From the NCBI GenBank assembly GCA_032622095.1, contig CP136067.1, positions 134,853,990-134,917,989 on the forward strand: a stretch of DNA of 64,000 bases, written 5' to 3'. The stretch is from Siphonodentalium dalli (Eukaryota > Mollusca > Scaphopoda > Gadilida > Siphonodentaliidae). Under the pieces are notes generated by a model, which worked only from the letters and a program-made list of their open reading frames with translations, ran no database searches and was not told the origin of the DNA. Below are positions 6,678 through 47,763 of this stretch, one piece after another (the stretch's first letter is position 1; every line of letters begins with the position of its first letter). The translations under genes and the position numbers were made by a program.

Positions 6678-7733
6678 TGCCAATGCATTCTCTTATATAT
6701 ATGCGAGTCTCCCATAGAGAGCCTGGCATATATCAGACAATACGTTGGCCTAACAATAATTTTAATGACCGTGCATGTAAGCCAGTGCGTGCATTATATT
6801 ATTTATGCGAGGCTCCTTGTGGGAGACTCGCATATATAAGGGAATGCACTGGCGCAGGATCTTTAATGCCGCGCCGGATCATGCGCCAGTGTATTCTCTT
6901 ACATGTATATATGCGAGTGTCCCATGGGAATGCGAGTTTCCCATAGGAAGCCTCGCATTTGTAAGAGAATGCATGGCTTAATGGTCAAGGGAAATATTGT
7001 TGGGCCAATGTATTCCCTTATATATACGAGGCTCCCTATGGGAGACTCGCATATATAATAACATGCATTTGCACACGGTTTTGCAAAATTTCAAGAAGCT
7101 CCAGTCATAGAATGGTTGATCTGGAGTATTTTATTTCACCAACGTAATACAGATGTCCGTTACTGCGAATATGTGGTGCATGCCTGCATGTATGACAGAC
7201 AACAAAGATTGCGTTTCTATGGGGAGCCTCGCATATATAAGAGAATGCACTGCCTTACAAGGTGAAGGTAAATAGTGTTAGGCCAATGTATTCTCTTATA
7301 TATGCGGGGCTCCCTATGGGAGACTCGCATATACAAGAGAATGCATTGACACAGGTTTCGCAAAATTCAGGAAGCTCCAGCCATGGAATGGTTGAGCTGG
7401 AGTAATTTATTTCACCAACGTAATACAGATGTGCGTTACTGCGAAAATGTGGTGCATGCCTGCATGTATGACAGACAACGATTGCGTTTCTGCACTTAAC
7501 ATGATTGGGTCGAAGTTTACTCTGTATGAGTAGAATTCATACACTTTCCGTAACCCTGTCACGACGGTAACTGCGCTGGTGCAGCATTAAATATCATGCG
7601 CCAGTGCATTCTCTTATATAATGCGAGTCTACCATAGGGAGCCTCGCATATATTATAGAATGCATTGCTTTACAAGGTCAGGGTAAATAGTGTTAGGCCA
7701 ATGTATGCTCTTATATATGCGAGGCTCCCTATG
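6678..7733. repeat. Cluster of ~70-bp hairpin repeats (family C)
   Basis: At least eight copies of a palindrome of about 70 bp occur here: CAATGCATTCTCTTATATAT, ATGCGAGNCTCCCTATGGG, AGACTCGCATATATAAGAGA, ATGCATTGGC. Copies lie at about 6,678-6,750, 6,781-6,855, 6,883-6,977, 7,003-7,072, 7,217-7,256 (half), 7,281-7,352, 7,599-7,671 and 7,697-7,733 (cut by a hAT element). Between them a ~280-bp unit is duplicated (7,075-7,260 and 7,355-7,500; GTGGTGCATGCCTGCATGTA in both). Each copy would fold into a long single-stranded hairpin. Confidence 0.75.
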
Positions 7734-16692: not shown

Positions 16693-18468
16693 TTACGTAC
16701 CTTTGCGCCCTCTGGTGTACGATACTTTGACGTTGGTTCTCGCCCTTCTCGTTCGATCGCCTCCTATGAATTCACAGTGGTCCTCGCCTTGGCCAAGCTC
16801 GTCCCCGATATCCAGGAATGTATCCTCTAAGTTGTCTGCCAGCGTCAGTTTGTACCTATAGCGCGAGCACAATATGGCACCAACGTATCTTCCGCTCGAA
16901 TACGGAGTTTTCCGAACATACTGTCGCCCATGACAACCAGAGTTCCCGTTCAAGTATGAAAAGTTGAATTTCGTCCACAATTCATTTTCCAAATTATAGT
17001 TCAGTTCTTGCACCAACATTCTGCGGGATATTTCTTGCATATTTTTATTCAGAATTGCAATCGACTCATTTAATGAGTTTCCTTCCAGAGTCGAAAACTC
17101 CGAACAACACGTTTGGTTGGCATTGTCAAGTGCGTTAACTTTTTTGCGAATAAGGTCAAGGTCATATGACAAGGATTTAACATTCCTTCTATTCACATGC
17201 CTGTCTTCGCGCATGGATTCTGTATGTTCATCGATCTCTTCCTCGATGTCTGTTAACCTATCTTCCATAAAACTAGAATGATCATAATCAAGTTGTTGTG
17301 AATATATGGAATTATTTAGGTATAGGAATTGATGTCTTGTATTAACGGAAACTCTAGTTATCTTTCTATCCAGGAAATCCACGGTGTGTTTCAGTGGTGT
17401 AAACAATGAACCCATCCTCACCACGGATCTGTTCAGTGACAGTTGCTCTCGTTGGATACGATCAGTCACGTGACCAATCATGTGTCTGTTATCAGCGGCT
17501 AATTTCAGTGCCTGTCTTGATCTTTGATCGTCATCATCCGTTCTCAGCCTCCATTGCGAACTGAAAAGAGTGTTATTGAGAAACGTCACTTTGGTTCCAA
17601 GCTTCTTGGATGTGACGTCAATTGACCTGACGTCCCGTCGCAGATTAGACACCACATTAGAGTAGTCTTTCTTGAAATCGAAAAACATATGTTCGAAGGA
17701 CAATGTTTTGTTAATCAACATCTCCATTTGAATATAGACATTGTCTAGATCGGCGTGATTCGAGTAAGATGGCACTGGTTCGTCTGGAAATAGTGTGGAT
17801 CCTATAACTGGTGGCAGGGTCGAGAAAACTGGATCTGTATCAAAACCGTCAAACGGCTCTTCATCGGCTGTTTGTTTTACAGGTTCGTCAACAACATGTT
17901 CGTCCATACCACTCAATTCATCATCATAAAATGTGTCATATCCCTTTTGGAACTTATCAAGAAATGTGTCGACATAATCGTCCTGTTCGTCAAAGAGAAG
18001 TTGATCATTCATCACGTGACCTTTTCTAGGAGCGTCTGCTAATTTACCATTGACGACACGCCTGGAATTGTGCGGTCTATTTTGATGAAAACTGTACATT
18101 CGGGACATCACGCCCTGAAATATTTCTTCTCCCATCTTGGTGAACTGCTGTCTGGTAATAGCCGATCGTCCACTATTAATTCCGTCTTGAGTTATTCTCG
18201 TCAGTGTTTTCTCGACATCTCTAAGTCGAAAGTCGTATTTGTCGGTTAACTCCAAACATTGTTTAGTTTCCAAATCCAATCTCTTCTGAAACCGCTGTAA
18301 CCTATCATCAAACCCTGAAAGTTTCTCCTCCACATCTCTCAGTATCTGCTTCCTTGGCACCGTAATTTGCAACACGATGTTTTCTTGACCCTCTTCTGTA
18401 GCAGCAGATACCGTCAAAGCAATCCAGCCCATAATTAAAACAATAACGTCATGTCCCGGAAACAACAT
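16693..18468 (-). CDS. Secreted coiled-coil protein of unknown function, 591 aa
   Basis: This is the only long open frame in the window and it is uninterrupted. The start has a clear signal peptide: hydrophobic residues 8-20 (VIVLIMGWIALTV), with likely cleavage near residues 22-23. Residues 35-95 and about 240-490 are heptad-like and charged (for example LRDVEEKLSGFDDRLQRF and RLTDIEEEIDEHTES), suggesting coiled coils. Residues 155-235 are acidic and Pro-rich, probably disordered. Seven N-glycosylation sequons occur at about 253, 298, 346, 385, 451, 467 and 502. Residues 510-591 form a compact basic domain with Cys at 512, 534 and 565, Gly/Tyr-rich (SSGRYVGAILCSRYRYK) and a GEDHCEF motif. 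A Cys pair at 454-455 could link chains. The layout (signal, coiled coil, small C-terminal globular domain) resembles secreted oligomeric recognition or extracellular-matrix proteins, but I do not recognise the C-terminal domain. Single-exon structure could indicate a retrocopy or an intronless gene. Function is not inferred. Confidence 0.8.
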   Translation of the reverse strand: MLFPGHDVIVLIMGWIALTVSAATEEGQENIVLQITVPRKQILRDVEEKLSGFDDRLQRFQKRLDLETKQCLELTDKYDFRLRDVEKTLTRITQDGINSGRSAITRQQFTKMGEEIFQGVMSRMYSFHQNRPHNSRRVVNGKLADAPRKGHVMNDQLLFDEQDDYVDTFLDKFQKGYDTFYDDELSGMDEHVVDEPVKQTADEEPFDGFDTDPVFSTLPPVIGSTLFPDEPVPSYSNHADLDNVYIQMEMLINKTLSFEHMFFDFKKDYSNVVSNLRRDVRSIDVTSKKLGTKVTFLNNTLFSSQWRLRTDDDDQRSRQALKLAADNRHMIGHVTDRIQREQLSLNRSVVRMGSLFTPLKHTVDFLDRKITRVSVNTRHQFLYLNNSIYSQQLDYDHSSFMEDRLTDIEEEIDEHTESMREDRHVNRRNVKSLSYDLDLIRKKVNALDNANQTCCSEFSTLEGNSLNESIAILNKNMQEISRRMLVQELNYNLENELWTKFNFSYLNGNSGCHGRQYVRKTPYSSGRYVGAILCSRYRYKLTLADNLEDTFLDIGDELGQGEDHCEFIGGDRTRRARTNVKVSYTRGRKGT

Positions 18469-19283
18469 AGTGCTCTATTGTAACATTATTTGATTTCGAG
18501 TAGACAGTTCCTGGCAGATAATTAATTAAATTTGGTTTTGTTGTAATCAGAACGTTGTTGGCCTCTCAAGAATTATATAGCGTCGTCTTGGAAACCTTCA
18601 TGCATGATCCACAAAGAAACGAGAGGACGACAGCTCATTAATTGTGTTCGGCATCTTAATCCTGAGTTGTATGTGTTTCGTGTAGACACTATACCATGTA
18701 CCTGCTGTATATAATGATATATCTTGATCTTGTAAATTTTAGAACGTTGTGGTATCGTGATAATTTTAATAGTCGGTCGACTCTCGTTATCAGAATGGTT
18801 CACTTCTAAACAAAGCAAGCAAGTGGTTGTAAATTAAACAATAATGTGTAACTTCTTAATTTATCTCAGAACACACGCGTGTGATGTTGATGATGCCGAT
18901 GATTGATCAACACCCCACACGAGGGTCGTTACTGGTGCTCTCATGTCGATCGAGTCCCGTGGAGTTGAGTAACTGTTATAACGATCGCTGATGTAATCCC
19001 TGAAGAGAGAAATAATACACATTGTTAGTGTCATACTTATAGTAACCGGACATACATTCACTGTGTGAGGGCGTACGCTCTGGAGTAACAACAAACTTCA
19101 GATATATATATATATGGGAGCATAATGATATATATAGTTATATATATCGTGCGGTGCTGAGCAATTCCACCCACCAAATGTCATCATCATATATATATAG
19201 AGAGTATAATATGTATCCTTTGTGACAAAGAAATAGAGAGACCTATAATATGAATTAATTGGGAATATTATCACATATACACT
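18469..19283. other. 5' flank of the 591-aa gene and spacer
   Basis: The start context is AGAGCACTATGTTG on the minus strand. No TATA box or CpG-rich promoter stands out. AT microsatellites occur near 19,100-19,200. No other supported feature. Confidence 0.35.
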
Positions 19284-22545: not shown

Positions 22546-22901
22546 GGTGCTAGCTCTGTGAGATTATTTAAAGATTTCGAAATGCACTTGGGTTGATAAG
22601 CTTAAACAGGGCTGTAGCGACAGAGATGTTGGTGTCTCGGTCGGGTCGGCCTTCTCTAAAAATGACGACCCGAGTTTTCGAAATTTAAAATTTCGATGGC
22701 CTACACTTTGGCTAATTTGTAACTGAGTTTTAGTCGAACTACACCAATATCCCACCCGACCAAAGACATGAATGCTTCCGCCCAGAGAGCATTGAGTTTG
22801 TCCGAAATTATTCATTTTTTAAAGGCTTATATACATGTAGTCCGGTTATTTTAACCCTTTCGAGCCGGGAGTTGCGATGATGCAGCACTGCATGTCCTGT
22901 G
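22546..22901. other. Unassigned spacer
   Basis: An 83-codon minus-strand frame has no recognised domain; nothing else seen. Confidence 0.35.
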
Positions 22902-23045
22902 ACAATGCATTCGCTTATATGTGCGAGTCTCCCATAGGAAGCCTCGCATATTTTAGAGAGCGCATGCAGTGGCTGTTTGAGGTCAAAGAAAATAATGTTA
23001 GACCAAATGTAGTCTCTGATATATGGGAGACTCGCATATAGAGAT
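22902..23045. repeat. Family C hairpins (one full, one partial)
   Basis: ACAATGCATTCGCTTATATG, GCGAGTCTCCCATAGGAAGC and CTCGCATATTTTAGAGAGCG form one hairpin (22,902-22,972). A second, shortened copy lies at 23,003-23,045 and directly precedes the first Helitron 5' end. Confidence 0.65.
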
Positions 23046-23048
23046 ATA

Positions 23049-23952
23049 TCTCATATATATTTTGAAGACCTCTGTCTGTCTGTATGTTTGTATGTTTGTA
23101 TGTTTGTCATTTATACAAATCTACGATTCTCGACCGATCGGGACGAAACTTGGTACGTGTGTGTAGTTTGACCATGCGGTGGACGTTGTCGTATTGGCGA
23201 GCCCGTGCGGCGCCCGTGCAGCGCATGCGCAGACGAGATCTCTGAAACGGGTGGAGCTATCGACTTGAAATTTGCTATGTGAATGTATCTTGCCCCGGAT
23301 ACGAATTTTATCTGGTCGCCGAGCCCGTGCGACGCCAGCTTCGCGCATGCGCAGACCAGATCTCGGACACGGGTGGAGCTATCGACTTGAAATTTGCTAT
23401 GTGAATGTATCTTGCCCCGGATACGAATTTTATCGGGTCGCCGAGCCCGTGCGACGCCAGCTTCGCGCATGCGCAGACCAGATCTCGGAAACGGGTAGAG
23501 CTATCGACTTGAAATTTGTTTTTTTAATAGCCCGGACAACGTCGGGCTGGGTAGAGCTATCGACTTGAAATTTGGTTTAGACGAGATCTCGTAAACGGAT
23601 GCAGCTATCGACTTGAAATTTGGTATGTGAATGTAGCTTGCCCCGGATACGAATTTTATCGGGTCGCCGAGCCCGTGCGACGCCAGCTTCGCGCATGCGC
23701 AGACGAGATCTCGGAGCTATCGACTTGACATTTGGTATGTGAATGTATCTTGCCCCGGATACGAATTTTATCGGGTCGCCGAGCCCGTGCGACGCCAGCT
23801 TCGCGCATGCGCAGACCAGATCTCGGAAACAGGTAGAGTTATCGACTTGAAATTTGGTTTTTGAATTATCCGGACAACGTCGGCCTGGGTAGAGCTATCG
23901 ACTTGAAATTTGGTTCTTGAATAGCCCGGACAACGTCGGGCTCATCGGCTAG
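23049..23952 (+). mobile_element. Helitron unit 1 with 122-bp minisatellite
   Basis: Starts A|TCTCATATATATTTTGAAGA and ends with the stem-loop AGCCCGGACAACGTCGGGCT followed by CATCGGCTAG. The core is a tandem repeat of period 122 bp (CGACTTGAAA at 23,261, 23,383 and 23,505). Each unit carries GGTCGCCGAGCCCGTGCGAC and CGCGCATGCGCAGACC. Minus-strand open frames here (MREAGVARARRPDK type) come from the repeat and are not genes. No Rep/helicase: non-autonomous. Confidence 0.85.
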
Positions 23953-23960
23953 TCTATCTA

Positions 23961-24376
23961 TCTCATATATATTTTGAAGACCTCTGTTTGTTTGTCTGTC
24001 TGTCTGTCATTTATACAAATCTACTATTCTCGACCGATCGGGACGAAACTTGGTACGTGTGTGTAGTTTGACCAGGTGGTCGTCGTTGTCGTATTGGCGA
24101 GCCCGCGCGACGCCCGTACAGCGCATGCGCAGACGAGATCTCGGAAACGGGTGGAGCTATCGAATTGAAATTTGCTATGTGAATGTATCTTGCCCCGGAT
24201 ACGAATTTTATCGGGTCGCCGAGCCCGTGCGATGCCAGCTTCGCGCATGCGCAGACCAGATATCGGAAACGGGTGGAGCTATCGACTTGAGCAGACCAGA
24301 TCTCGGAAACGGGTGGAGCTATCGACTTGAAATTTGGTTTTTGAATAGCCCGGACAACGTCGGGCTCATCGGCTAG
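23961..24376 (+). mobile_element. Helitron unit 2
   Basis: Same 5' end (TCTCATATATATTTTGAAGA) and same 3' stem-loop plus CTAG as unit 1, with only two repeat units inside. It is separated from unit 1's CTAG by 8 bases (TCTATCTA). Confidence 0.85.
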
Positions 24377-25845
24377 TACTATATATTTTGAGAGTTCGTA
24401 TATGTGTGTGTGTGTGTGTACTTCATAGAATCCAAAACGACTGGTCCGATCGAGCTCAAACTTCGTATATAAGGATAAAAAGCAACGGGGATCGTCCGCG
24501 TAGCATTTTGGAGACGCTCAGAGCACTATTTCTCCACTCCCAATCATTTTATTGATCCGTAAACACGGAGGGGGGGGTTAATCCAAGAAGAGTAACTCTA
24601 CATCATTTTTATAGCACAAATATGCCTTAAAGCGCCAAATAATTCACCACCTGCGTGTATTCAAGAATATGAATCACACCAAAATTAAGCGAATTGTATA
24701 TGGAATGTGTATGTATAAGCTGCGATGTGTATATCATTCCCAGAATCCTACTATATCATGACATTCTATTAGTTAAAATAAAACACCTTTAAATGTTGGG
24801 GGCATCGCGATATAGGCAAGCGAGCAAAGAGAGTTTTTGTCATCATAGGCTATTTCGCTATTGCGAAATGGGTGATCGTTACATGTAGCATAATTACATT
24901 GAACGACATATTTAATTATGTTTGTGTGTGAATAACGATGGTGAAGACTTCCAATAACATATTAAATGGTCAAATATCCGTATATTCAAAATAATATCTA
25001 TTTTACAAGCTCGACATGCCATGTTTGTGTATATGGTACACTACCGTTCCAACACATCTTGCTGATACTTCCGTTCCAACACATCTTGCTATTTATCATT
25101 TTGCTGGTGAGAAAGTTTATGTTCACTTTGGTGCTATTTATATGCACAGAAAAAGGTACCATTACTCGGGAAAGCAACCTACTGAAATGCATATAGATGT
25201 ACGCGAATCATGTTGCGTTCTCACACAATGCAGTTATCCCAAATCCGCGCTCTTTAAAATAGAATTGGCTGCATGGCTGGCCTACTTCTGATGGCACATT
25301 ATGTTACGCACCTGTCCGACTAAGTCACTTTGAACCCAAAATGTATACAAAATTCGCACAAGCTCTTCACATTGAAACGGGTACCCACAAGTGATATATA
25401 TGTGTGTGTTCTTTATAGACTCGGACCGATTGAGCTCAAACTTGGTGTCTACGGGAAGTGTCATGGACGGGTTAAAAACTTGGTATCTACGGGAAGTGTA
25501 ATGGACGGGTTAAATTGTGACCCCGACCTGACCTTGACCTTGAAAATGATCAATTCAGGGTCAAATCGGGTCAAATTGAAAAACAAAAAATTAAATTAAA
25601 AAATTAAAAAGGCACAATTAACTCATTGAACAAAAAAATTAAATTAAAAAATTAATTAAAAGCATTAAGTAAAAAAGCCAGTAAATTAAAAAGGCACAAT
25701 TAACTCATTGAAAAACAAAATAATTTAAATAAAAAATTAATTTAAAAAATTAAAAATTGTCATAAATTAATTAAAAACATTAATTTAAAAAATTAAAATT
25801 GTCATGTTTCGGACGATTGCCGCCAGTGGCGGGCTAACCTGCTAG
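24377..25845 (+). mobile_element. Helitron unit 3
   Basis: Follows CTAG directly with TACTATATATTTTGAGAGTT, and ends TTGCCGCCAGTGGCGGGCTA, ACCTGCTAG. The 3' part holds GACCTGACCTTGACCTTGAA (shared with the 33-kb element) and AATTAAAAA low-complexity DNA. Short frames around 25,016-25,600 have no domain. Confidence 0.8.
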
Positions 25846-26445
25846 TCTATACTATATATTTTGAGACTTCGTATATATGTGTGTACTTCATAGAATCCAA
25901 AACGCGTGTACATATTGAGCTCAAACTTCCTATGTAAGTGTCAAATCCCACCGACACGACCGTGGTCGCGGTTTAGAGAAGCTCAGAGCACCCGTTCTCC
26001 AATCTCAAATCACCGCAAAGGCACGGCGTGGGTTAATCAAGTGATTATTTAATGAGCGTTTGTTTTTGACGCATCTCTATAAAGAGCGTCTGTTTCCCAT
26101 TCAACGTTATTAGCATCTGCAGACGGGAACATTGAGTGCTTGCCTATGCGACGAGATTTATTGGAGCTCTTACAACATCATTGTTATAGTATGTATGACA
26201 CTTAGGTCAGGGCTTAGGGGGGGGGTAGTTATAGGCATAATGCTTCTCATAAATCCCGGTTACAAACCAACACTCACAATTTCGTATTTACGCAAACGTT
26301 ATCGCTCGAAATTTATTCCCTGCGAGCACGGATGGCGCGCTTTGTTTTTACAGTATATACCGAAATCATCCAAGATAATCACGAAAATAGCATCAGATTT
26401 CTCCCCAGATATACCGTTATAAAGCTACTGGAATCTGCCAATCTA
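25846..26445 (+). mobile_element. Helitron unit 4 (3'-truncated, 600 bp)
   Basis: Starts TCTATACTATATATTTTGAG right after CTAG. It ends at GAATCTGCCAATCTA, where the next TC 5' end begins, so its 3' hairpin is missing. It is nearly identical to 26,446-27,045 at exactly 600-bp offset. A 96-codon frame in both copies is conserved only because the DNA is. Confidence 0.8.
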
Positions 26446-27065
26446 TCTATACTATATATTTTGAGACTTCGTATATATGTGTGTACTTCATAGAATCCAA
26501 AACGCGTGTACATATTGAGCTCAAACTTCCTATGTAAGTGTCAAATCCCACCGACACGACCGTGGTCGCGGTTTAGAGAAGCTCAGAGCACCCGTTCTCC
26601 AATCTCAAATCACCGCAAAGGCACGGCGTGGGTTAATCAAGTGATTATTTAATGAGCGTTTGTTTTTGACGCATCTCTATAAAGAGCGTCTGTTTCCCAT
26701 TCAACGTTATTAGCATCTGCAGACGGGAACATTGAGTGCTTGCCTATGCGACGAGATTTATTGGAGCTCTTACAACATCATTGTTATAGTATGTATGACA
26801 CTTAGGTCAGGGCTTGGGGGGGGGGTAGTTATAGGCATAATGCTTCTCATAAATCCCGGTTACAAACCAACACTCACAATTTCGTATTTACGCAAACGTT
26901 ATCGCTCGAAATTTATTCCCTGCGAGCACGGATGGCGCGCTTTGTTTTTACAGTATATACCGAAATCATCCAAGATAATCACGAAAATAGCATCAGATTT
27001 CTCCCCAGATATACCGTTATAAAGCTACTGGAATCTGCCAATCTACTATATAATTTGAGACTTCC

Positions 27066-27137
<72 letters not shown>

Positions 27138-27788
27138 ATATATGTGGGTACTTCATAGAATCGAAAACGCGTGTAGGAACGGGCATCCCCACGGCAATGT
27201 CGGCTTATAAGACATCTTTACTACACATGACAGCCGATGGACAATTGGTCTCTATATATGTACCAAAATTACGCCGCGTTGGTGACTGGGAAATTCCAGG
27301 GAATGCCGATTGAGCTCAAACTTGCTACCTACGGGAAGTGTCATATATATGAGTGTGTCCTTTATAGACTCGAACCGATTGAGCTCAAACTTGCTAAATA
27401 TTGACTGGGAAATTCCAGGGAATGCCGATTGAGCTCAAACTTGCTACCTATACGGGAAGTGTCATATATATGTGTGTGTCCTTTATAGACTCGAACCGAT
27501 TGAGCTCAAACTTGCTAAATACGGGAAGTGTCATGGACGGGTTCATTGAAAAACAAAAAAAAATCGGGTAAAATTAACTCCTTGAAAAACAAAAAAAAAT
27601 CGGGTAAAATTTAAAAACAAAAAATTCAATTAAAAAATTAAAAAAGCACAATTAACTCATTGAAAAACAAAATAATTAACTCATTGAAAAGCAAAAAATT
27701 CAATTAAAATTGTCATGTTTCTGACTATTGCCGAAATTTGCTGCAAATGCAGCATACGAATGCCGCCAGTGGCGGGCTAACCCGCTAG
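26446..27788 (+). mobile_element. Helitron unit 5 (full length, with nested 5' end)
   Basis: TCTATACTATATATTTTGAG to GCCAGTGGCGGGCTAACCCG, CTAG. At 27,045 the sequence after GAATCTGCCAATCTA becomes CTATATAATTTGAGACTTCC plus a (TA)n tract of ~60 bp, which looks like a second Helitron 5' end nested inside. The host sequence resumes at GGAAATTCCAGGGAATGCC. Repeats of GATTGAGCTCAAACTTGCTA follow. Confidence 0.8.
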
Positions 27789-28884
27789 TCTATCTATACT
27801 ATATATTTTGAGACTTCGTATATATATATGTATGTATGTACTTCATAGAATCCAAAACGCGTGTAAAGATTGAGCTCAAACTTCCTATGTAAGTGTCAAA
27901 TCCGACCGACACGACCGTGGTCGCGGTTTAGAGAAGCTCAGAGCACCCGTTCTCCAATCTCAAATCACCGCAAAGGCACGGCGGGGGTTAATCAATTGAT
28001 TATTGAATGAGCGTTTGTTTTTGACGCATCTCTATAAAGAGCGTCTGTTTCCCATTCAACGTTATTCGCATCTGCAGAGTTATACGGGAACGCAAACGTT
28101 ATCGCTCGAAATTTATTCCCTGCGAGCACGGATGGCGCGCTTTGGTATATACCGAAATCATCCCAGATAATCACGTATATAGCATCAGATTTCTCCCCAG
28201 ATATACCGTTATAAAGCTACTGGAATCTGCCAATCTACGGGAAATTCCAGGGAATGCCGATTGAGCTCAAACTTGCTACCTACGGGAAGTGTCATATATA
28301 TGAGTGTGTCCTTTATAGACTCTAACCGATTGAGCTCAAACTTGCTAAATAAGAAAATAGCCCCCAAGCCGTAAATATCAACAACAACGATATTGCTACC
28401 TACGGGGAGCAACGTTATTAGCATCTGCAGAATTATGCAGAGTGAAATTGCTTTCCTATTTTTAGAACGCAACACATGTATACGTCGCGTTGGTGATTGA
28501 GGTTCACAACGGGGTTAATTGACTGTCCGCTCTTTGCGACGATGAGGTTCCCGGTGGGGACTATTGACCAACACTCACAATTTCGTCTTTTGCATCAGAT
28601 ACCAACACCTCGACCGATCGGGACGAAACTTGGTACGTGAGTGTAGTTTGACCAGGTGGTCGTCGCTGTCGTATTGGCGAGCCCGTGCGACGCCCGTGCA
28701 GCGCATGCGCAGACGAGATATCGGAAACGGGTGGAGCTATCGCTTGAAATTGGTATGTGAATGTATCTTGCCCCGGATACGAATTTTATCGGGTCGCTGA
28801 GCCCGTGCGGGCAAACCTGCTATTTAAAACTTAAAAATTGTCATGTTTCTGACTATTGCCGCCAGTGGCGGGCTAACCTGCTAG
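27789..28884 (+). mobile_element. Helitron unit 6
   Basis: Begins TCTATCTATACTATATATTT after CTAG and ends GCCGCCAGTGGCGGGCTAAC, CTGCTAG. It lacks the nested insertion of unit 5, so GAATCTGCCAATCTACGGGA runs straight through (28,223-28,242). It contains part of the 122-bp minisatellite of unit 1 (CGCATGCGCAGACGAGATAT). Confidence 0.8.
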
Positions 28885-29475
28885 TACTATATATTTTGAG
28901 ACTTCGTATATATGTGTGTACTTCATAGAATCCAAAACGCGTGTACATATTGAGCTCAAACTTCCTATGTAAGTGTCAAATCCCACCGACACGACCGTGG
29001 TCGCGGTTTAGAGAAGCTCAGAGCACCCGTTCTCCAATCTCAAATCACCGCAAAGGCACGGCGTGGGTTAATCAAGTGATTATTTAATGAGCGTTTGTTT
29101 TTGACGCATCTCTATAAAGAGCGTCTGTTTCCCATTCAACGTTATTAGCATCTGCAGACGGGAACATTGAGTGCTTGCCTATGCGACGAGATTTATTGGA
29201 GCTCTTACAACATCATTGTTATAGTATGTATGACACTTAGGTCAGGGCTTAGGGGGGGGTAGTTATAGGCATAATGCTTCTCATAAATCCCGGTTACAAA
29301 CCAACACTCACAATTTCGTATTTACGCAAACGTTATCGCTCGAAATTTATTCCCTGCGAGCACGGATGGCGCGCTTTGTTTTTACAGTATATACCGAAAT
29401 CATCCAAGATAATCACGAAAATAGCATCAGATTTCTCCCCAGATATACCGTTATAAAGCTACTGGAATCTGCCAA
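28885..29475 (+). mobile_element. Helitron unit 7 (copy of unit 4)
   Basis: By eye identical to unit 4 apart from the length of a G-run and four bases at the 5' end. It starts TACTATATATTTTGAGACTT after CTAG and is cut at GAATCTGCCAA by unit 8. Confidence 0.8.
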
Positions 29476-30095
29476 TCTATACTATATATTTTGAGACTTC
29501 GTATATATGTGTGTACTTCATAGAATCCAAAACGCGTGTACATATTGAGCTCAAACTTCCTATGTAAGTGTCAAATCCCACCGACACGACCGTGGTCGCG
29601 GTTTAGAGAAGCTCAGAGCACCCGTTCTCCAATCTCAAATCACCGCAAAGGCACGGCGTGGGTTAATCAAGTGATTATTTAATGAGCGTTTGTTTTTGAC
29701 GCATCTCTATAAAGAGCGTCTGTTTCCCATTCAACGTTATTAGCATCTGCAGACGGGAACATTGAGTGCTTGCCTATGCGACGAGATTTATTGGAGCTCT
29801 TACAACATCATTGTTATAGTATGTATGACACTTAGGTCAGGGCTTAGGGGGGGGGTAGTTATAGGCATAATGCTTCTCATAAATCCCGGTTACAAACCAA
29901 CACTCACAATTTCGTATTTACGCAAACGTTATCGCTCGAAATTTATTCCCTGCGAGCACGGATGGCGCGCTTTGTTTTTACAGTATATACCGAAATCATC
30001 CAAGATAATCACGAAAATAGCATCAGATTTCTCCCCAGATATACCGTTATAAAGCTACTGGAATCTGCCAATCTACTATATAATTTGAGACTTCC

Positions 30096-30179
<84 letters not shown>

Positions 30180-30830
30180 ATATATGTGGGTACTTCATAG
30201 AATCGAAAACGCGTGTAGGAACGGGCATCCCCACGGCAATGTCGGCTTATAAGACATCTTTACTACACATGACAGCCGATGGACAATTGGTCTCTATATA
30301 TGTACCAAAATTACGCCGCGTTGGTGACTGGGAAATTCCAGGGAATGCCGATTGAGCTCAAACTTGCTACCTACGGGAAGTGTCATATATATGAGTGTGT
30401 CCTTTATAGACTCGAACCGATTGAGCTCAAACTTGCTAAATATTGACTGGGAAATTCCAGGGAATGCCGATTGAGCTCAAACTTGCTACCTATACGGGAA
30501 GTGTCATATATATGTGTGTGTCCTTTATAGACTCGAACCGATTGAGCTCAAACTTGCTAAATACGGGAAGTGTCATGGACGGGTTCATTGAAAAACAAAA
30601 AAAAATCGGGTAAAATTAACTCCTTGAAAAACAAAAAAAAATCGGGTAAAATTTAAAAACAAAAAATTCAATTAAAAAATTAAAAAAGCACAATTAACTC
30701 ATTGAAAAACAAAATAATTAACTCATTGAAAAGCAAAAAATTCAATTAAAATTGTCATGTTTCTGACTATTGCCGAAATTTGCTGCAAATGCAGCATACG
30801 AATGCCGCCAGTGGCGGGCTAACCCGCTAG
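29476..30830 (+). mobile_element. Helitron unit 8 (copy of unit 5)
   Basis: By eye identical to unit 5 including the nested 5' end, with a (TA)n tract ~12 bp longer. Ends in the same hairpin and CTAG. Confidence 0.8.
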
Positions 30831-31994
30831 TCTATACTATATATTTTGAGACTTCGTATATATGTGTGTATATATGTGTGTATATATGTGTGTGTGTACT
30901 TCATAGAATCCAAAACGCGTGTACAGATTGAGATCAAACTTCCTATGTAAGTGTCAAATCCCACCGACACGACCGTGGTCGCAGTTTAGAAAAGCTCAGA
31001 GCACCCGTTCTCCAATCTCATTCATCAAAATCAGCTCAAACGGCACGGCCGGGGTTAATAACGTCATTATATATATATATGAAGTCAGAGTCTCCAGAGT
31101 TATACCGGAACAAACACGTGTTTACGTCGTCTTGGGGGTCCACGATGGGAGTCTGACTTCAATGCAATGTTATCGCTCGAAACACGTGTTTACTTCGTGT
31201 TGAGGTTCACGATGGGAGTCTGACAATTGTTATCGCTCGAAATAGTACAACGGCTGGACAGATTGAGCTCAAACTTCCCATCTAGAGGTAAAATATCACG
31301 TACGATGTCGTCCACGCGTTTTCCAGAAGCTCCGAGCACCCGTACTCCACTCCCAGTCATTAAAATCAGCTCAAACGGCACGGCCGGGGTTAATAACGTC
31401 ATTATATATATATATGAAGTCAGAGTCTCCAGAGTTATACGGGAACAAACACGTGTTTACGTCGTCTTGGGGGTCCACGATGGGAGTCTGACTTCAATGC
31501 AATGTTATCGCTCGAAACACGTGTTTACTTCGTGTTGAGGTTCACGATGGGAGTCTGACAATTGTTATCGCTCGAAATAGTACATTAGGACGGGTACGAA
31601 ATGCATTTATCTCGATTAAAAAGGCAGATCTCGGAAACGGGTGGAGCTATCGACTTGAAAATTGCAATGTGAATGTATCTTGCGCCGGGTACAAATTTTA
31701 TCGGGTCGCCGAGGCCATGCGACGCCCGTGCAGCGCATGCGCAGACGAGATATCGGAAACGGGTGGAGCTATCGACTTGAAATTTGCTATGTGAATGTAT
31801 CTTGGGCCGGGTACAAATTTGATCGGGTCGCCGAGCCCGTGCGAAGCCAGCTTCGCGCATGCGCAGACCAGATCTCGGAAACGGGTGGAGCTACCGGGTA
31901 CAATTTTTTCTTATTGAAACGCGTGGAGCTAAAAATAAAAAAAAAATATAAACAATGTTTCGGACAAGCCGCCGGTGGCGGGCTAACCTGCTAG
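30831..31994 (+). mobile_element. Helitron unit 9 with internal 335-bp duplication
   Basis: TCTATACTATATATTTTGAG to AAGCCGCCGGTGGCGGGCTA, ACCTGCTAG. A segment starting at CGGCACGGCCGGGGTTAATA (31,041) is repeated at 31,376, 335 bp later, with ACACGTGTTTAC blocks. The 3' half carries the 122-bp minisatellite type with two GCGCATGCGCAGAC sites. Confidence 0.8.
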
Positions 31995-33318
31995 TACTAT
32001 ATATTTTGAGACTTCGTATATATGTGTGTATGTGTGTACTTCATAGAATCCAAAACGCGTGTACAGATTGAGCTCAAACTTACTATGTAAGTGTCAAATC
32101 ACACCGACACGACCGTGGTCGCAGTTTAGAAAAGCTCAGAGCACCCGTTCTCCAATCTCAAATCACCACAAAGGCACGGCGTGGGTTAATCAAGTGATTA
32201 TTTAATGAGCGTTTGTTTTTGACGCATCTCTATAAAGAGCGTCTGTTTGCCATTCAACGCTATTTGCATCTGCAGAGAGATATACGGAACATACATTAAA
32301 TTTAAAAAACATTTGTTTCTGACCAACCCTGCGAGCACGGATGGCGCGCTTTGTTTTTACAGTATATAGTTATATACCGAAATCATCCCAGATAATCACG
32401 AATATAGCATCAGATTTCTCCCCAGATATACCGTTATAAAAAGATACTGGAATCTGCCAATCTACGGGAAATTCCAGGGAATGCCGATTGAGCTCAAACT
32501 TGCTACCCACGGGAAGTGTCATATATATGAGTGTGTCCTTTATAGACTCGAACCGATTGAGCTCAAACTTGCTAAATAAGAAAATAGCCCCCAAGCCGTA
32601 AATATCAACAACAACGATATTGCTACCTACGGGGAGCAACGTTATTAGCATCTGCAGAATTATGCAGAGAGAAAATCCTTTCCTATTTTTAGAACGCAAC
32701 ACATGTTTACGTCGCGTTGGTGATTGAGGTTCACAACGGGGTTAATTGACTGTCCGCTCTTTGCGACGATGAGGTTCACGGCGGGGACTATTGACCAACA
32801 CTCACAATTTCGTCTTTTGCATCAGATACCAACACCTCGACCGATCGGGACGAAACTTGGTACGTGAGTGTAGTTTGACCAGGTGGTCGTCGCTGTCGTA
32901 TTGGCGAGCCCGTGCGACGCCCGTGCAGCGCATGCGCAGACGAGATATCGGAAACGGGTGGAGCTATCGACTTGAAATTTGGTATGTGAATGTATCTTGC
33001 GCCGGGTACAATTTTTATCGGGTCGCCGAGCCCGTGCGACGCCCGTGTAGCGCATGCGCAGACGAGATATCGGAAACGGATGGAGCTATCGACTTGAAAT
33101 TTGCTATGTGAATGTATCTTGCGCCGGGTACAAATTTTATCGGGTCGCCGAGTCCGTGCGACGCCAGCTTCGCGCATGCGCAGACCAGATCTCGGAAACG
33201 GGTGGAGCTACCGGGTACAAATTTTTCTTATTGAAACGCGTGGAGCTAAAAATTAAAAAAAAATATTTAAAAAATGTCATGTTTCGGACAAGCCGCCGGT
33301 GGCGGGCTAACCTGCTAG
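31995..33318 (+). mobile_element. Helitron unit 10
   Basis: TACTATATATTTTGAGACTT after CTAG to AAGCCGCCGGTGGCGGGCTA, ACCTGCTAG. Left half matches unit 6, right half carries three 122-bp minisatellite units. This is a mosaic of the two sub-types seen elsewhere in the array. Confidence 0.8.
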
Positions 33319-35540
33319 TCTATTATATATTTTGGAAGATCTGTCTGTCTGTGTGTCTGTCTGTCTGTAAGTGTGTTCGCGATGGACTCGAAAACGACAT
33401 AACCGATTTCGATGAAACTTGGTATGTGGGGATACTTTCGGCCGTGGAGTGACATGAGCCTGTTAATTTGCCCGTGTGACGTGACCTTGACCTTGAAATC
33501 GGGTCATTTCAAGGTCAAACGCCCGAGTATCACGGGATTTCGATGAAACTTTGTATGTGGGGGTACTTTCGGCCGGCGAGTGGCATATGCCTATTAATTT
33601 GCCCGTACGACGTGACCTTGACCTTGAACCCGGGTCATTTCAAGGTCAAACGCCCGAATATCACGGGATTTCGATGAAAATTAGTGTCTAGGGATACTTT
33701 CGTATGGGGAGTCTCATAAGCCTATTCATTTGCCCGTGCGACGTGACATTGACCTTGAAATCGGGTCAATTCAAGGTCAAATCGCGAATTTTGATGGGAT
33801 TTCTACGAAATTTGATACATATGGTTACTTTTGTCCACTGAGTGTTTTGGACGGGTCAAATCGTGACCCCGACCTGACCTTGACCTTAAAAATGATCAAT
33901 TCAAGGTCATAGAGAAGAATAATATATCAATTTGGTGGAAATCTGGGCTAAAAATAGTTTATTAAATCAATTGTTGATGCCCCACCCCTGCAACGCTGAC
34001 TCGAACAACGCCATATCGCGGAGGTGATTATGTATGCGTTTGGTGGAAATCGGCGACAAAACTATTTCACCATATTTTTTTATTTTGCCGACCTCTCCCC
34101 TTTCTTCCCCTGACACCAACAGCGTCACTTTAGAAAATTTAAACCCGCACTATTATCTTCCTTGTAAAAGTTACCCCTCTTAGAACGCCTTGGTGCCATC
34201 TCGATTGTACCGCGTGAAGTTATATATAGAAAGCACACAGACAGACAGAAAGACAGACAGCACGATTTATTTCTCGTATCATTTGAGAAGAACGTGTCTG
34301 AATTTGATGGTAATTGGTACTAAAAATATTTTGTATCAGTTTTGGTGACATTCCCGTCCCTATTCCGGACTCAAGCTGCACACACTAAGACTCATTAGAG
34401 ATTAGAGATGCATATATATGAAATTAGTGAAAATTGGCGAGTATACAAATTCGTATCAAATTTAAGGTCCCCAAATCTCTCACCCATAGGGCACCAGTTT
34501 GGTGTATCTAAACCACACGATAAGATTCCTCGTGTCACTGAGAAGAATATGTATCAATCTGGTGGAAATCGGCGCTAAACATATTGATATCATTTTTTGT
34601 GTTCCTCTCACCTCTATACACCACTAACTCGAATGGCCCCACTTGTGACATCCTCAAACCACACAAACCATATCTCCTGATATCATGGAGATGATTATTT
34701 ATAAGTTTGGTGCTAATCGGCGACGAAACAATTTTTATCAAATTTGGTGCCCACCCCTCCCCATCTTTCACACAAACAGCACCACTATGGCGTCTTTAAA
34801 TCACACGATTAGATTCCTCGTCTCATGGATAAGAACGTGTATCAATTTGGTGGAAATTGGAGCTAAAAACATGTGCATCAATTTTGGTGCCCCCTCCCTT
34901 TCAATGCACCCCTGACTCGAATGAGGTCACATTTGACAGATTTAAGCCACACAATTAGACTACTCATACCATGGGGATGATTTTGTATAAGTGTGGTGGC
35001 AATCGGTGACTAAACCAATTATTATCAAATTAGTGCCCCCCCCCCCCAATATATCATCCAAACGACAACTTTTTGGCGTTGTTAAATCGCATAATTAGAT
35101 TCCTTGTATCATGAAGAAGAATATATATCAATTTGGTGGAAATCGGCGCTAAAATTAGTTTTATCAATTTTGGTGCACCTCTCCCCTTCCGCGCATCCCT
35201 GACTCGAACGACGCCACTTTTGACACATTTAAACCACACCGTTAGATTCTTCATATCATGGACATGATTATATGTAAGTTTCGTGGCAATCGGCGCCAAA
35301 AAAAATTCTGACCCTCCCCCTTTTCTGCCCCTGACAACAACGACGTCACTTTAGAAAATTCTAACCCCGACCATTATCTTTCTCGTAAAAAGCTACCCCT
35401 AGTAGACCCCTTTGGTGTCATCTAGATGGTCCCCTGTGGATTTCTATAGAACACAGACAGACATGGTCCCCTGTGAATTTCTATAGAACACAGACAGACA
35501 GACAGACAGACAGACAGACGTTCGCAAATATAGATATAGA
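33319..35540 (+). mobile_element. Minisatellite-rich Helitron-like element
   Basis: Starts TCTATTATATATTTTGGAAG then a TCTG run, directly after CTAG. It carries about four ~132-bp units (GGGATTTCGATGAAACTT, GACGTGACCTTGACCTTGAA; 33,404-33,930). It then holds ~130-bp half-units to 35,440 (TCAATTTGGTGGAAATCGGC alternating with ATGATTATNTATAAGTTTGG). It ends in CAGACAGACAGACAGACAGA, CGTTCGCAAATATAGATATA, roughly complementary to its own 5' end. No CTAG hairpin is seen at the right end, so its class is less sure. Several 70-80-codon frames are repeat artefacts. Confidence 0.6.
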
Positions 35541-41714: not shown

Positions 41715-42726
41715 TGTCGTCGTCGGTCTTCATCCTAGTGTAATATCTATAGGTACATATTGGTTGACAGCCATCGTATCGTCCCGGTCTTCATCCTAGT
41801 GTAATATCCAGGTACATATTGGTTGACAGCCATCGTATCGTCCCGGTCTTCATCCTAGTGTAATATCTAGGTACATATTGGTTGACAGCCATCGTATCGT
41901 CCCGGTCTTCATCCTAGTGTAATATCTAGGTACATATTGGTTGACAGCCATCGTATCGTCCCGGTCTTCATCCTAGTGTAATATCTAGGTACATATTGGT
42001 TGACAGCCATCGTATCGTCCCGGTCTTCATCCTAGTGTAATATCTAGGTACATATTGGTTGACAGCCATCGTATCGTCCCGGTCTTCATCCTAGTGTAAT
42101 ATCTAGGTACATATTGGTTGACAGCCATCGTATCGTCCCGGTCTTCATCCTAGTGTAATATCTAGGTACATATTGGTTGACAGCCATCGTATCGTCCCGG
42201 TCTTCATCCTAGTGTAATATCTAGGTACATATTGGTTGACAGCCATCGTATCGTCCCGGTCTTCATCCTAGTGTAATATCTAGGTACATATTGGTTGACA
42301 GCCATCGTATCGTCCCGGCCTTCATACTAGTGTAATATCTAGGTACATATTGGTTGACAGCCATCGTATCGTCCCGGTCTTCATCCTAGTGTAATATCTA
42401 GGTACATATTGGTTGACAGCCATCGTATCGTCCCGGTCTTCATCCTAGTGTAATATCCAGGTACATATTGGTTGACAGCCATCGTATCGTCCCGGTCTTC
42501 ATCCTAGTGTAATATCTAGGTACATATTGGTTGACAGCCATCGTATCGTCCCGGTCTTCATCCTAGTGTAATATCTAGGTACATATTGGTTGACAGCCAT
42601 CGTATCGTCCCGGTCTTCATCCTAGTGTAATATCTAGGTACATATTGGTTGACAGCCATCGTATCGTCCCGGTCTTCATCCTAGTGTAATATCTAGGTAC
42701 ATATTGGTTGACAGCCATCGTATCGT
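41715..42726 (+). repeat. 59-bp satellite array, 17 units
   Basis: GGTTGACAG occurs at 41,762 and then every 59 bases through 42,706, i.e. 17 occurrences. The unit contains GGTACATATTGGTTGACAGC, CATCGTATCGTCCCGGTCTT and CATCCTAGTGTAATATC. Units are almost identical. The few variants are CTATAGG in the first unit, CCAGG in two units, and GGCCTTCATACTAG in one. Edges decay into GTCGTCGGTCTTCATCCTAG on the left and TATCGTTCCGAGCC on the right. 59 is not a multiple of 3 and stops occur in every frame, so it is not coding. Confidence 0.95.
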
Positions 42727-42852
42727 TCCGAGCCGAGTCCTTGATAATAGCATGCAGCCTGAGGAGCAGAGCGGAAGTAAGGCTTCTGTCTTTCGGCTAA
42801 ACCCTATCCGATTGCGCCCGGATGCCGATCTCATGATGGAGCATGTCTCTGT

Positions 42853-43765
42853 TCCGAAGGTTCGCTATTCGGAAGGTTCGCTATTCGGAAGGTTCTCTAT
42901 TCCGAAGGTTTCCTATTCCGAAGGTTCTCTATTCCGAATGTTTTTTTTATTCTATTACAAACGAGGACCTTTCCTTGTGGACGACATGCGACGAACCGAC
43001 TTGCAAGTTTCATCCATACACAGAACGACACGATGTGTAAATAGGTTTGTCGATACGGCACGAGTGCTGTCGCGGAAGGTTGGAACGAGAGGCGCTTGCG
43101 CCTCGAGTTATATCCTTCCGCGACAGCACGAGTGCCGTATCGAAAAACCCATTTACACATCGTGTCGTTCTGTGTTTATTGCACGCTTCGCGTACTAGAA
43201 TCCGTGCATTAAAAATTCAGGCTTAGAATGTTTATTTAGGCACACAGAGGGCGTGTTTTGTCATGTGTGATGCTTTTATTTTATAGTTCCGGTTTCATGG
43301 TTGAGGCGAACGTCATGTACGTCATTTTACGTCACTGAGATGCGTATGGAACGTACATGTACATGTACGTTCCATACGTATTTGTTAATATGGAACAGCA
43401 ATAATACTGTACTTCTGGGAACAAGCGTGTAATAAAAAGACAGGATGCCAGTTCGGTCGGACTTTATCCCTCATTTTGTTTCGGTCATGCAGTCACCATA
43501 TGTTTCCATAATAAACAATAAACTTATACTGTATGTCTTCCTGATAATAATACCCGACATCTGAAACAATTTGGAAATTAAAATGGGGTGTATTAATGTT
43601 CTACGGGAATACAAGTGTAATAGTATTTTTCATTTTGGGGGGGGGGGGGGGGTGTGTGAATTTGTATGAATTTCTGAATAAACACGTCCAGAATAGCGAA
43701 CCTTCGGAATGAAGAACCTTCGGAATAGTGAACCTTTTGAATAAAGAACTTTCGGAATAGAAACC
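42853..43765. mobile_element. Foldback-like element FB-C with 16-bp repeat arms
   Basis: Left arm: five units of period 16 bp (GAAGG at 42,856, 42,872, 42,888, 42,904 and 42,920; unit like ATTCCGAAGGTTCTCT). Right arm: four units in reverse complement (CCTTCGGAA at 43,702, 43,718, 43,734 and 43,750). The interior holds a family F copy. The inverted tandem arms resemble FB-D, but only ~80 bp per arm is left, so the call is moderate. Confidence 0.6.
43000..43440 (+). repeat. Family F repeat with ~60-bp perfect-type stem, copy 2
   Basis: 43,018-43,175 is a large inverted repeat. ACACAGAACGACACGATGTG, TCGATACGGCACGAGTGCTG and TCGCGGAAGG pair with CCTTCCGCGACAGCACGAGT, GCCGTATCGA and CACATCGTGTCGTTCTGTGT. 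The loop has its own hairpin, GAGGCGCTTGCGCCTC. A second inverted repeat, ATGGAACGTACATGTACATG, lies at about 43,345-43,372. The rest matches 13,915-14,160. The open frame 42,704-43,198 runs through the satellite, arm and stem and is not a gene. Confidence 0.75.
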
Positions 43766-46009: not shown

Positions 46010-46324
46010 CGGTTTTCCGAAGACCTATTACTACGAAGGCCCACAACTCCGAAGACCCGATTCTACGAAGGCCCACAACTCCGAATACCCGATTCTCCGA
46101 CGGCCCACAACTCCAAAATCCCGATTCTCCGACGGCCCATAACTCCGAAGATCCGATTCTCCGAAAGCCCATAACTCCGAACGGCCGATTCTCCGAAGAC
46201 CTATAACTCCGAAGACCTATAACTCCGAAGGGCCGATTCTCCGACGGCCCATAACTCCGAAGGTCCGATTCTCCGAAGATTTTGTTTTATCGGGGTATTA
46301 TCGTTTACTAAATAGTGTACAGCC

Positions 46325-46516
46325 CAGTGGCGAAGCCAACGGGTCCCAAAATTCCCACTGCCCCCATTAAACCTCTACTTGCTATTTCAGACAATATGGG
46401 CCCCTACCAAAACATGTCCAATGTCATGTAAACGCCCGGAATCGTTCATGAGGAATCAAAATATTCAAACTTTTCCTACTGCCCCCACCTAAATGGGAAT
46501 CCTGGCCCGCCACTGA
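46325..46516. mobile_element. CAGTGGCG-ended element 1 inside FB-D
   Basis: Starts CAGTGGCGAAGCCAACGGG and ends GGCCCGCCACTG. CAGTGGCGGANCCAGGG ends are typical of a widespread hAT-like MITE type. No 8-bp target duplication is visible. Confidence 0.5.
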
Positions 46517-46666: not shown

Positions 46667-46955
46667 CAGTGGCGGAACCAGGGTTCCCATTTAGGGGTGC
46701 ACATTAATTAGCATATGTGGGGGATATGTGGGGGATATATCATGCATATGATAGGCCGAAAGCATATCACGATGACCTGATTTGGGGAGCGCATACATGG
46801 GAGGGGTCACCCCCAATCGTTGGTCCGGGGGCTCCCCTGGGCAGGAACACTGTGAATATTTGAATGCCTAGGCGGGATTTCCTGACGTTTACATGACATT
46901 TGACATGTTTTTTGGGGGCGGTCTTCCCTAGGGCCCCATTGACCCCGCCACTGGA
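46667..46955. mobile_element. CAGTGGCG-ended element 2 inside FB-D
   Basis: Starts CAGTGGCGGAACCAGGGTTC and ends TGACCCCGCCACTG. Similar terminal repeats to element 1; target duplication not evident. Confidence 0.55.
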
Positions 46956-47763
46956 CTGTACACTATTTAATAAGCGATAAAACATGATCTTCGGAGAATC
47001 GGACCTTCGGAGAATCGGACCTTCGGAGAATCGGCCCTTCGGAGTTATAGACCTTCGGAGTTATGGGCGTTCGGAGTTATAGGCATTCGGAGTTATGGGC
47101 TTTCGGAGTTATGGGTCTTCGGAGTTATGGGATTTCGGAGAATCGGGACTTCGGAGTTATGGGCTTTCGGAGAATCGGGGCGTCGGAAAATCTGACCTTC
47201 GGAGAATCGGACCTTCGGAGTTATGGGTCTTCGGAAAAACGCTACGTAACCCTTCAAATTGACCTTGCCATTTCCAAAATTTGAGATTTAGGGGTATCTA
47301 TTTTGTATCGAATATAATGGCTATATTAAATGATATATAGACATTGGAGATTGTCGAAGCGATACCATGGACGTCCGACTTTGTATCCAGATTCAATTTG
47401 TCTATGATAATCCAAAATGGCGGCCATAATGGACGCCAAAATAAAAATATTTTATGTTTTTCACTAATATCTTTCAAATCAGTTCCTGCTTTTGGGAACT
47501 GTTTGAGAATTACAACTTTATTTTGTATTGGTCACATTAACTGAACAATGGAGCAATTAAATATGCATTCGTGTGCTCCCTGCCAACTCCGATCCCTTAA
47601 AAATTCGATTATACAGAAAGTGGTATAAAAATTTACAAAAAATCACCATTGGGATTCTAGTCATATTTTCGTCAAAAAAAGGGAAGAACTGGGCAATCTA
47701 GTGACAAATTCCATTTCCTATGAATATTCCAACTCAATTGTACCCAAATTGTCAATTTGGCTC

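Follow-up and report, generated by a model that had tools for sequence, protein, structure and literature searches.

The window, that is, the whole stretch of 64,000 nucleotides of Siphonodentalium dalli (contig CP136067.1) analysed here, contains an array of nine small head-to-tail Helitron-type units, eight of which end in CTAG, while the truncated ninth starts at 33319 and carries the array beyond 33318 (Table 1). The last bases of the eight units at their CTAG are 23952, 24376, 25845, 27788, 28884, 30830, 31994 and 33318, and the eight CTAG positions listed in the initial annotation were all exact. The number of units given there, ten, fits neither the 3' ends (eight plus the truncated ninth) nor the 5' ends, of which the array holds 13 on the plus strand, with two extra internal ones in each of U4 and U6. 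These 5' ends are of three types, A in U1 and U2, B from U3 to U8 and C in U9, and do not form the two alternating interior sub-types that had been described. U9 resembles a solo copy with type C ends on the minus strand (16588-16234), and its right limit, at about 33909, was taken as the point where this match ends. A hairpin-CTAG 3' end was looked for in U9 and none was found; the right end of the array is lost.

Table 1. Units of the array, the words between them and the end sequences referred to in the text (positions in the window)
Feature	Positions	Strand	Description
U1	23049..23952	+	Type A; 5' end TCTCATATATATTTTG after host A; 3' hairpin and CTAG
U1 core repeats			Tandem, ~122 bp
Pair of TCTA words separating U1 from U2	23953..23960	+	TCTATCTA
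U2	23961..24376	+	Type A
U3	24377..25845	+	Type B, head TACT (without TCTA); 3' hairpin and CTAG
U4	25846..27788	+	Composite: 5' ends at 25846, 26446 and 27042; single 3' end
TCTA word between U4 and U5	27789..27792	+	
U5	27793..28884	+	Type B; decayed inner 3' end upstream of the real one
U6	28885..30830	+	Near-identical to U4; head TACT; further 5' ends inside it, at 29476 and 30072
U7	30831..31994	+	Type B 5' end, different interior
U8	31995..33318	+	Type B, head TACT
U9	33319..33909	+	Type C 5' end TCTATTATATATTTTGGAAG; 131-bp core repeats
5' head without TCTA			TACTATATA
End sequences expected to flank an autonomous Rep/Hel partner			TCTATACTATATATTTTG and GGCGGGCTAACCTGCTAG

Other repeats lie around the array. 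The repeat on its left, at 22852-23040, is 73-77% similar to one at 6695-7727 and contains ATGCGAGTCTCCCATA words in both orientations. Beyond U9, diverged repeats of ~280 bp occupy 33907-35540; on the minus strand, at about 35534-35540, their right end resembles another Helitron-type 5' end, in which TCTG repeats come after TCTATATCTATATTTGCG. The segment 35848-40768 consists of an inverted repeat of ~1.6 kb around a 1.7-kb middle, with 88% identity over 1,670 columns and 98.9% over the outer 353; it ends in GTCCAGGAGATATTGG with TA outside, and resembles a DNA transposon of the foldback type that targets TA. Further on are a 59-bp tandem repeat in 17 copies with 98% matches (41724-42730) and the inverted arms of 16-bp tandem repeats (46034-46347 and 46931-47233, 79% over 315 columns), to which a smaller pair, at 42845-42938 and 43672-43764, is similar.

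The units have the ends expected of Helitrons. Matches to TACTATATATTTTG with at most two mismatches number 15 in the window, 13 of them inside the array, compared with 1.5 expected, and 15 were reached in none of 100 shuffles. The canonical (Helitron1) 3' terminus, CTRR (here CTAG) after a short hairpin, was found in all eight CTAG-ended units, U9 being without a 3' end. The description of the unit ends as a GC stem-loop followed by CTAG was borne out, given that GC-rich hairpin regions are present in 8/8 units and the fold energies of the 45-nt 3' ends lie between -11.7 and -16.5 kcal/mol (RNA parameters). The other CTAG sites of the window (n = 104) fold at a mean of -5.6 kcal/mol; 16% of them reach -9 or lower, the extreme being -17.6. 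Among CTAG sites such a 3' hairpin is uncommon, yet not unique, and its predicted fold varies from unit to unit. The canonical TC start at the 5' end is found in U1, U2, U4, U5, U7 and U9; U3, U6 and U8 have it only if a nested reading of the array, developed below, returns a stranded TCTA to them. Canonical Helitrons insert between a host A and T and do not duplicate the target; here a host A directly precedes U1, and under the same nested reading the joins of the array are compatible with A|T insertion sites. The analysis supports Helitron-type ends, with TC on the 5' side, hairpin and CTAG on the 3' side and an A ahead of U1.

No match to Rep or helicase families was obtained with Pfam among the nine ORFs of at least 150 aa in the window. 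The longest of them (16693-18474, minus strand, 593 aa) matched TARSH_C at 6.4e-29, a domain that would suggest animal DNA, and the eight others gave no Pfam match at E 0.01. Rfam returned no match at gathering thresholds, and the type B 5' end, scanned for as an exact string, had no hit in viral contigs or in prokaryote genome contigs. The solo copy is flanked by G and A, not by A and T. The missing Rep/Hel match and these flanks would suit a different kind of hairpin-ended repeat, or a complex satellite, with ends that resemble those of Helitrons, an explanation that the 5' TC, the 3' CTAG with strong hairpin regions in 8/8 units and the A before U1 make very improbable.

The eight junctions are not of one kind. 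Three are flush with TCTA (U3|U4 at 25846, U6|U7 at 30831 and U8|U9 at 33319), three lead into a TACT head (U2|U3 at 24377, U5|U6 at 28885 and U7|U8 at 31995), and two are offset, U4|U5 by 4 bp (TCTA, 27789-27792) and U1|U2 by 8 bp (TCTATCTA, 23953-23960). Two offset junctions thus exist besides the two junction classes recognised initially; the 8-bp one had been recorded as the sole offset, that of unit 2, and the 4-bp one had been overlooked. Three of the eight junctions lack TCTA and two carry extra TCTA. The TACT heads (n = 3; U3, U6 and U8) are as many as the surplus TCTA words (n = 3), and the two pair in a properly nested order. On its own this order is weak evidence: among the 1,120 distinct orders of the same junction values, 280 (25%) show balanced nesting.

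Head-to-tail Helitrons are cited as evidence of rolling-circle copying, and it was as a rolling-circle read-through array that the initial annotation presented the locus. A read-through concatemer would show near-identical units joined CTAG|TC, which is not what the array as a whole displays. In a unit-against-unit BLAST (E 1e-3, coverage as the percentage of the first-named unit), neither U2/U3 nor U8/U9 gave a match at this threshold. The remaining neighbours ranged widely: U1/U2 (97% covered, ~88% identity), U3/U4 (42%, 73%), U4/U5 (67%, 95%), U5/U6 (59%, 93%), U6/U7 (29%, 80%, within ranges of 29-37% and 78-80%) and U7/U8 (66%, 87%). None of the eight adjacent pairs is near-identical along its full length, and the closest pairs are non-adjacent, namely U4/U6 over the full length and U5/U8 at ~92% identity over 98% of U5 and 96% of U8. 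A single read-through event for the whole array was rejected, given that neighbouring units are unlike in BLAST. Read-through would fit the U4/U6 pair without U5, but not the whole array, with its unlike neighbours and the unmatched U2/U3 and U8/U9. One or a few read-through events followed by divergence and small losses seem quite unlikely to us. At three of the eight junctions CTAG meets TCTA perfectly, without an intervening A, a single substitution in 1,934 aligned bases separates U4 from U6, which would be flush if U5 were removed, and excerpts of a published account cite tandem Helitrons as rolling-circle evidence (PMC5876387); nevertheless, neighbours differ in type and in sequence, and three TACT heads and two offset junctions would be unexpected.

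The U4/U6 pair deserves separate consideration. In a global alignment, 1,933 of 1,934 aligned bases match, with one substitution; besides this, the two differ in length at a TA run (by 12 bases), at a G run (by 1 base) and at two TCTA words. The match drops within about 50 bp outside the units on both sides, an edge that the conserved ends of the neighbours blur. By this alignment, U4 and U6 are copies of a single element. With U5 set aside, the CTAG of U4 stands directly before the TCTATACT of U6, which gives a flush near-identical dimer, the one good candidate for rolling-circle read-through. Two insertions of one source element at a single tip would leave an identical pattern, so the dimer stays a candidate.

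The same near-identity bears on two other explanations. Unequal crossing-over, gene conversion or another form of recombination among related units could have enlarged an older cluster, as suggested by the long blocks common to units, by U4/U6, by U5/U8 (92% alike) and by the match of S1 and S2 within U4 over 593 bases with one substitution. We regard this as unlikely, because a block produced by crossing-over would often end in mid-unit, whereas the U4/U6 near-identity stops within ~50 bp of the unit ends (with the edge blurred), and because this explanation offers no account of how unlike units first came together. An assembly error, with U6 as a false duplication of U4 and the tandem arrangement partly an artefact, would account for their near-identity; it is extremely improbable, as the two lie between different neighbours and are told apart by the TA run (12 bases), the G run, a TCTA word and a single base.

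The explanation that we consider fairly probable is that the array is made of short non-autonomous Helitron-type elements, gathered mainly by serial insertion at the 5' ends of residents. According to excerpts from the literature, Helitrons should insert between A and T (PMC2267711, PMC5148889). A resident 5' end, A|TCTA|TACTATATATTTTG, offers two such A|T targets, one flush with its first T and one 4 bp in; in type B these read A|TCTA and TCTA|TACT. Flush insertion would create the CTAG|TCTATACT join, and insertion 4 bp in would strand TCTA on the left side of the incoming element and leave a TACT head on its right. The array could then be written as U1, TCTA (U8), TCTA (U3), U2, rest of U3, U4, TCTA (U6), U5, rest of U6, U7, rest of U8 and U9, with the words at 23953..23960 assigned, putatively, to the stranded starts of U8 and U3, and the word at 27789..27792 to that of U6. 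The letters, positions and identities are observed, and from them we infer an order of events. U8 would have arrived flush in front of U9, and U7 would have inserted into U8. U4 and U6 would have come flush in front of U7, possibly as one rolling-circle dimer, followed by U3 flush in front of U4. U5 would then have inserted into U6 and U2 into U3, and U1 would have arrived flush in front of the TCTA of U8. The composites U4 and U6 may have arisen by copying from an outer 5' end as far as the first 3' end encountered.

U6 provides stronger evidence than the nested order alone. As a copy of the same element as U4, U6 should start with TCTATACT, as U4 does. The TCTA missing from U6 directly precedes U5, and this word together with the TACT head of U6 restores the flush starts seen at 25846 and 30831; the twin U4 has kept its TCTA and that of U6 adjoins U5. 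Ordinary repeat slippage needs two copies, so that loss of a single TCTA is not slippage, and plain slippage was rejected as the origin of the TACT heads for want of another TCTA with which the lone word could misalign. The chance that seven random A|T choices would all fall on the two tip sites is roughly 10^-12.5, a figure whose events and residents come from the serial-insertion reading itself; it counts against random nesting, not against read-through. The inner 5' ends of U4 and U6 have no CTAG before them and are preceded by GCCAA, which indicates that these ends also sit at A|T. A decayed inner 3' end is found in U5 at 28809-28822, where GGGCAAACCTGCTA is followed by TTT and CTAT replaces CTAG.

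Several points count against serial insertion, besides the weakness of the nested order, the lost right end at U9 and the missing transposase match among the ORFs of the window. One is the solo copy, with its flanks of G and A. Another is the junction of S1 and S2 inside the composites, TCTATCTA in U4 and a single TCTA in U6, a difference which means that the number of TCTA words also changes by other means. In addition, strict use of A|T implies that U5, U3 and U2 arrived after U4 and U6; being younger than a very young pair (1 substitution), they would need a recent burst or later homogenisation. As to the enzyme, we put forward tentatively that the 5' tip of a resident Helitron may serve as an attachment site, which Rep would recognise and nick as it would that of a donor, joining the incoming strand or circle to it, whereby the cluster would grow 5'-ward.

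The letters at the joins separate read-through from insertion at 5' tips unit by unit, and most joins favour insertion, read-through accounting for one pair at most. If this is general, tandem Helitrons should not count as read-through before neighbours have been checked as mutual copies, and Helitron ends may be preferred targets of further Helitrons. Pritham and Feschotte reportedly described in 2007 tandem Helitrons of Myotis lucifugus with perfect head-to-tail joins, read as rolling-circle products. As far as that summary goes, perfect head-to-tail joins are common to both cases, whereas here only U4 and U6 are near-identical enough.

Further parallels come from maize and fungi. In excerpts of Du et al. 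2008, adjacent maize Helitrons resemble our array in having CTAG directly before TC, a G/T join and unlike neighbours (PMC2267711). They are attributed there to consecutive insertion; among the options is a canonical insertion into the AT that the host A makes with the first T of the resident 5' end (PMC2267711). Those excerpts deal with two units, unlike the nine found here, where a 4-bp-in class with stranded TCTA is also present. FoHeli of Fusarium, according to excerpts of PMC5148889, has several 5' ends but a single 3' end, an arrangement attributed to self-insertion and subsequent transposition that starts at the leftmost 5' end and stops at the first 3' one. U4 and U6 are similar in their several 5' ends and one 3' end, although the ends of FoHeli are Helitron2-like and those described here are canonical-looking TC/CTAG. 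The same excerpts explain a three-copy tandem in Metarhizium by two insertions into a 5' end or as a rolling-circle product (PMC5148889). The decayed inner 3' end of U5, with CTAT for CTAG, recalls the maize multi-terminus Helitrons in excerpts of PMC3288121, which belong to another sequence family; the element described here lies in a tandem array. A description of the stranded-TCTA class was not met in the excerpts of the Helitron literature covered by searches aimed at other points, and the class is not claimed as unpublished. Tandem Helitrons, consecutive insertion beside a resident and multi-terminus Helitrons are already on record in these published excerpts, and the array of Siphonodentalium dalli is a long and legible new example of them.
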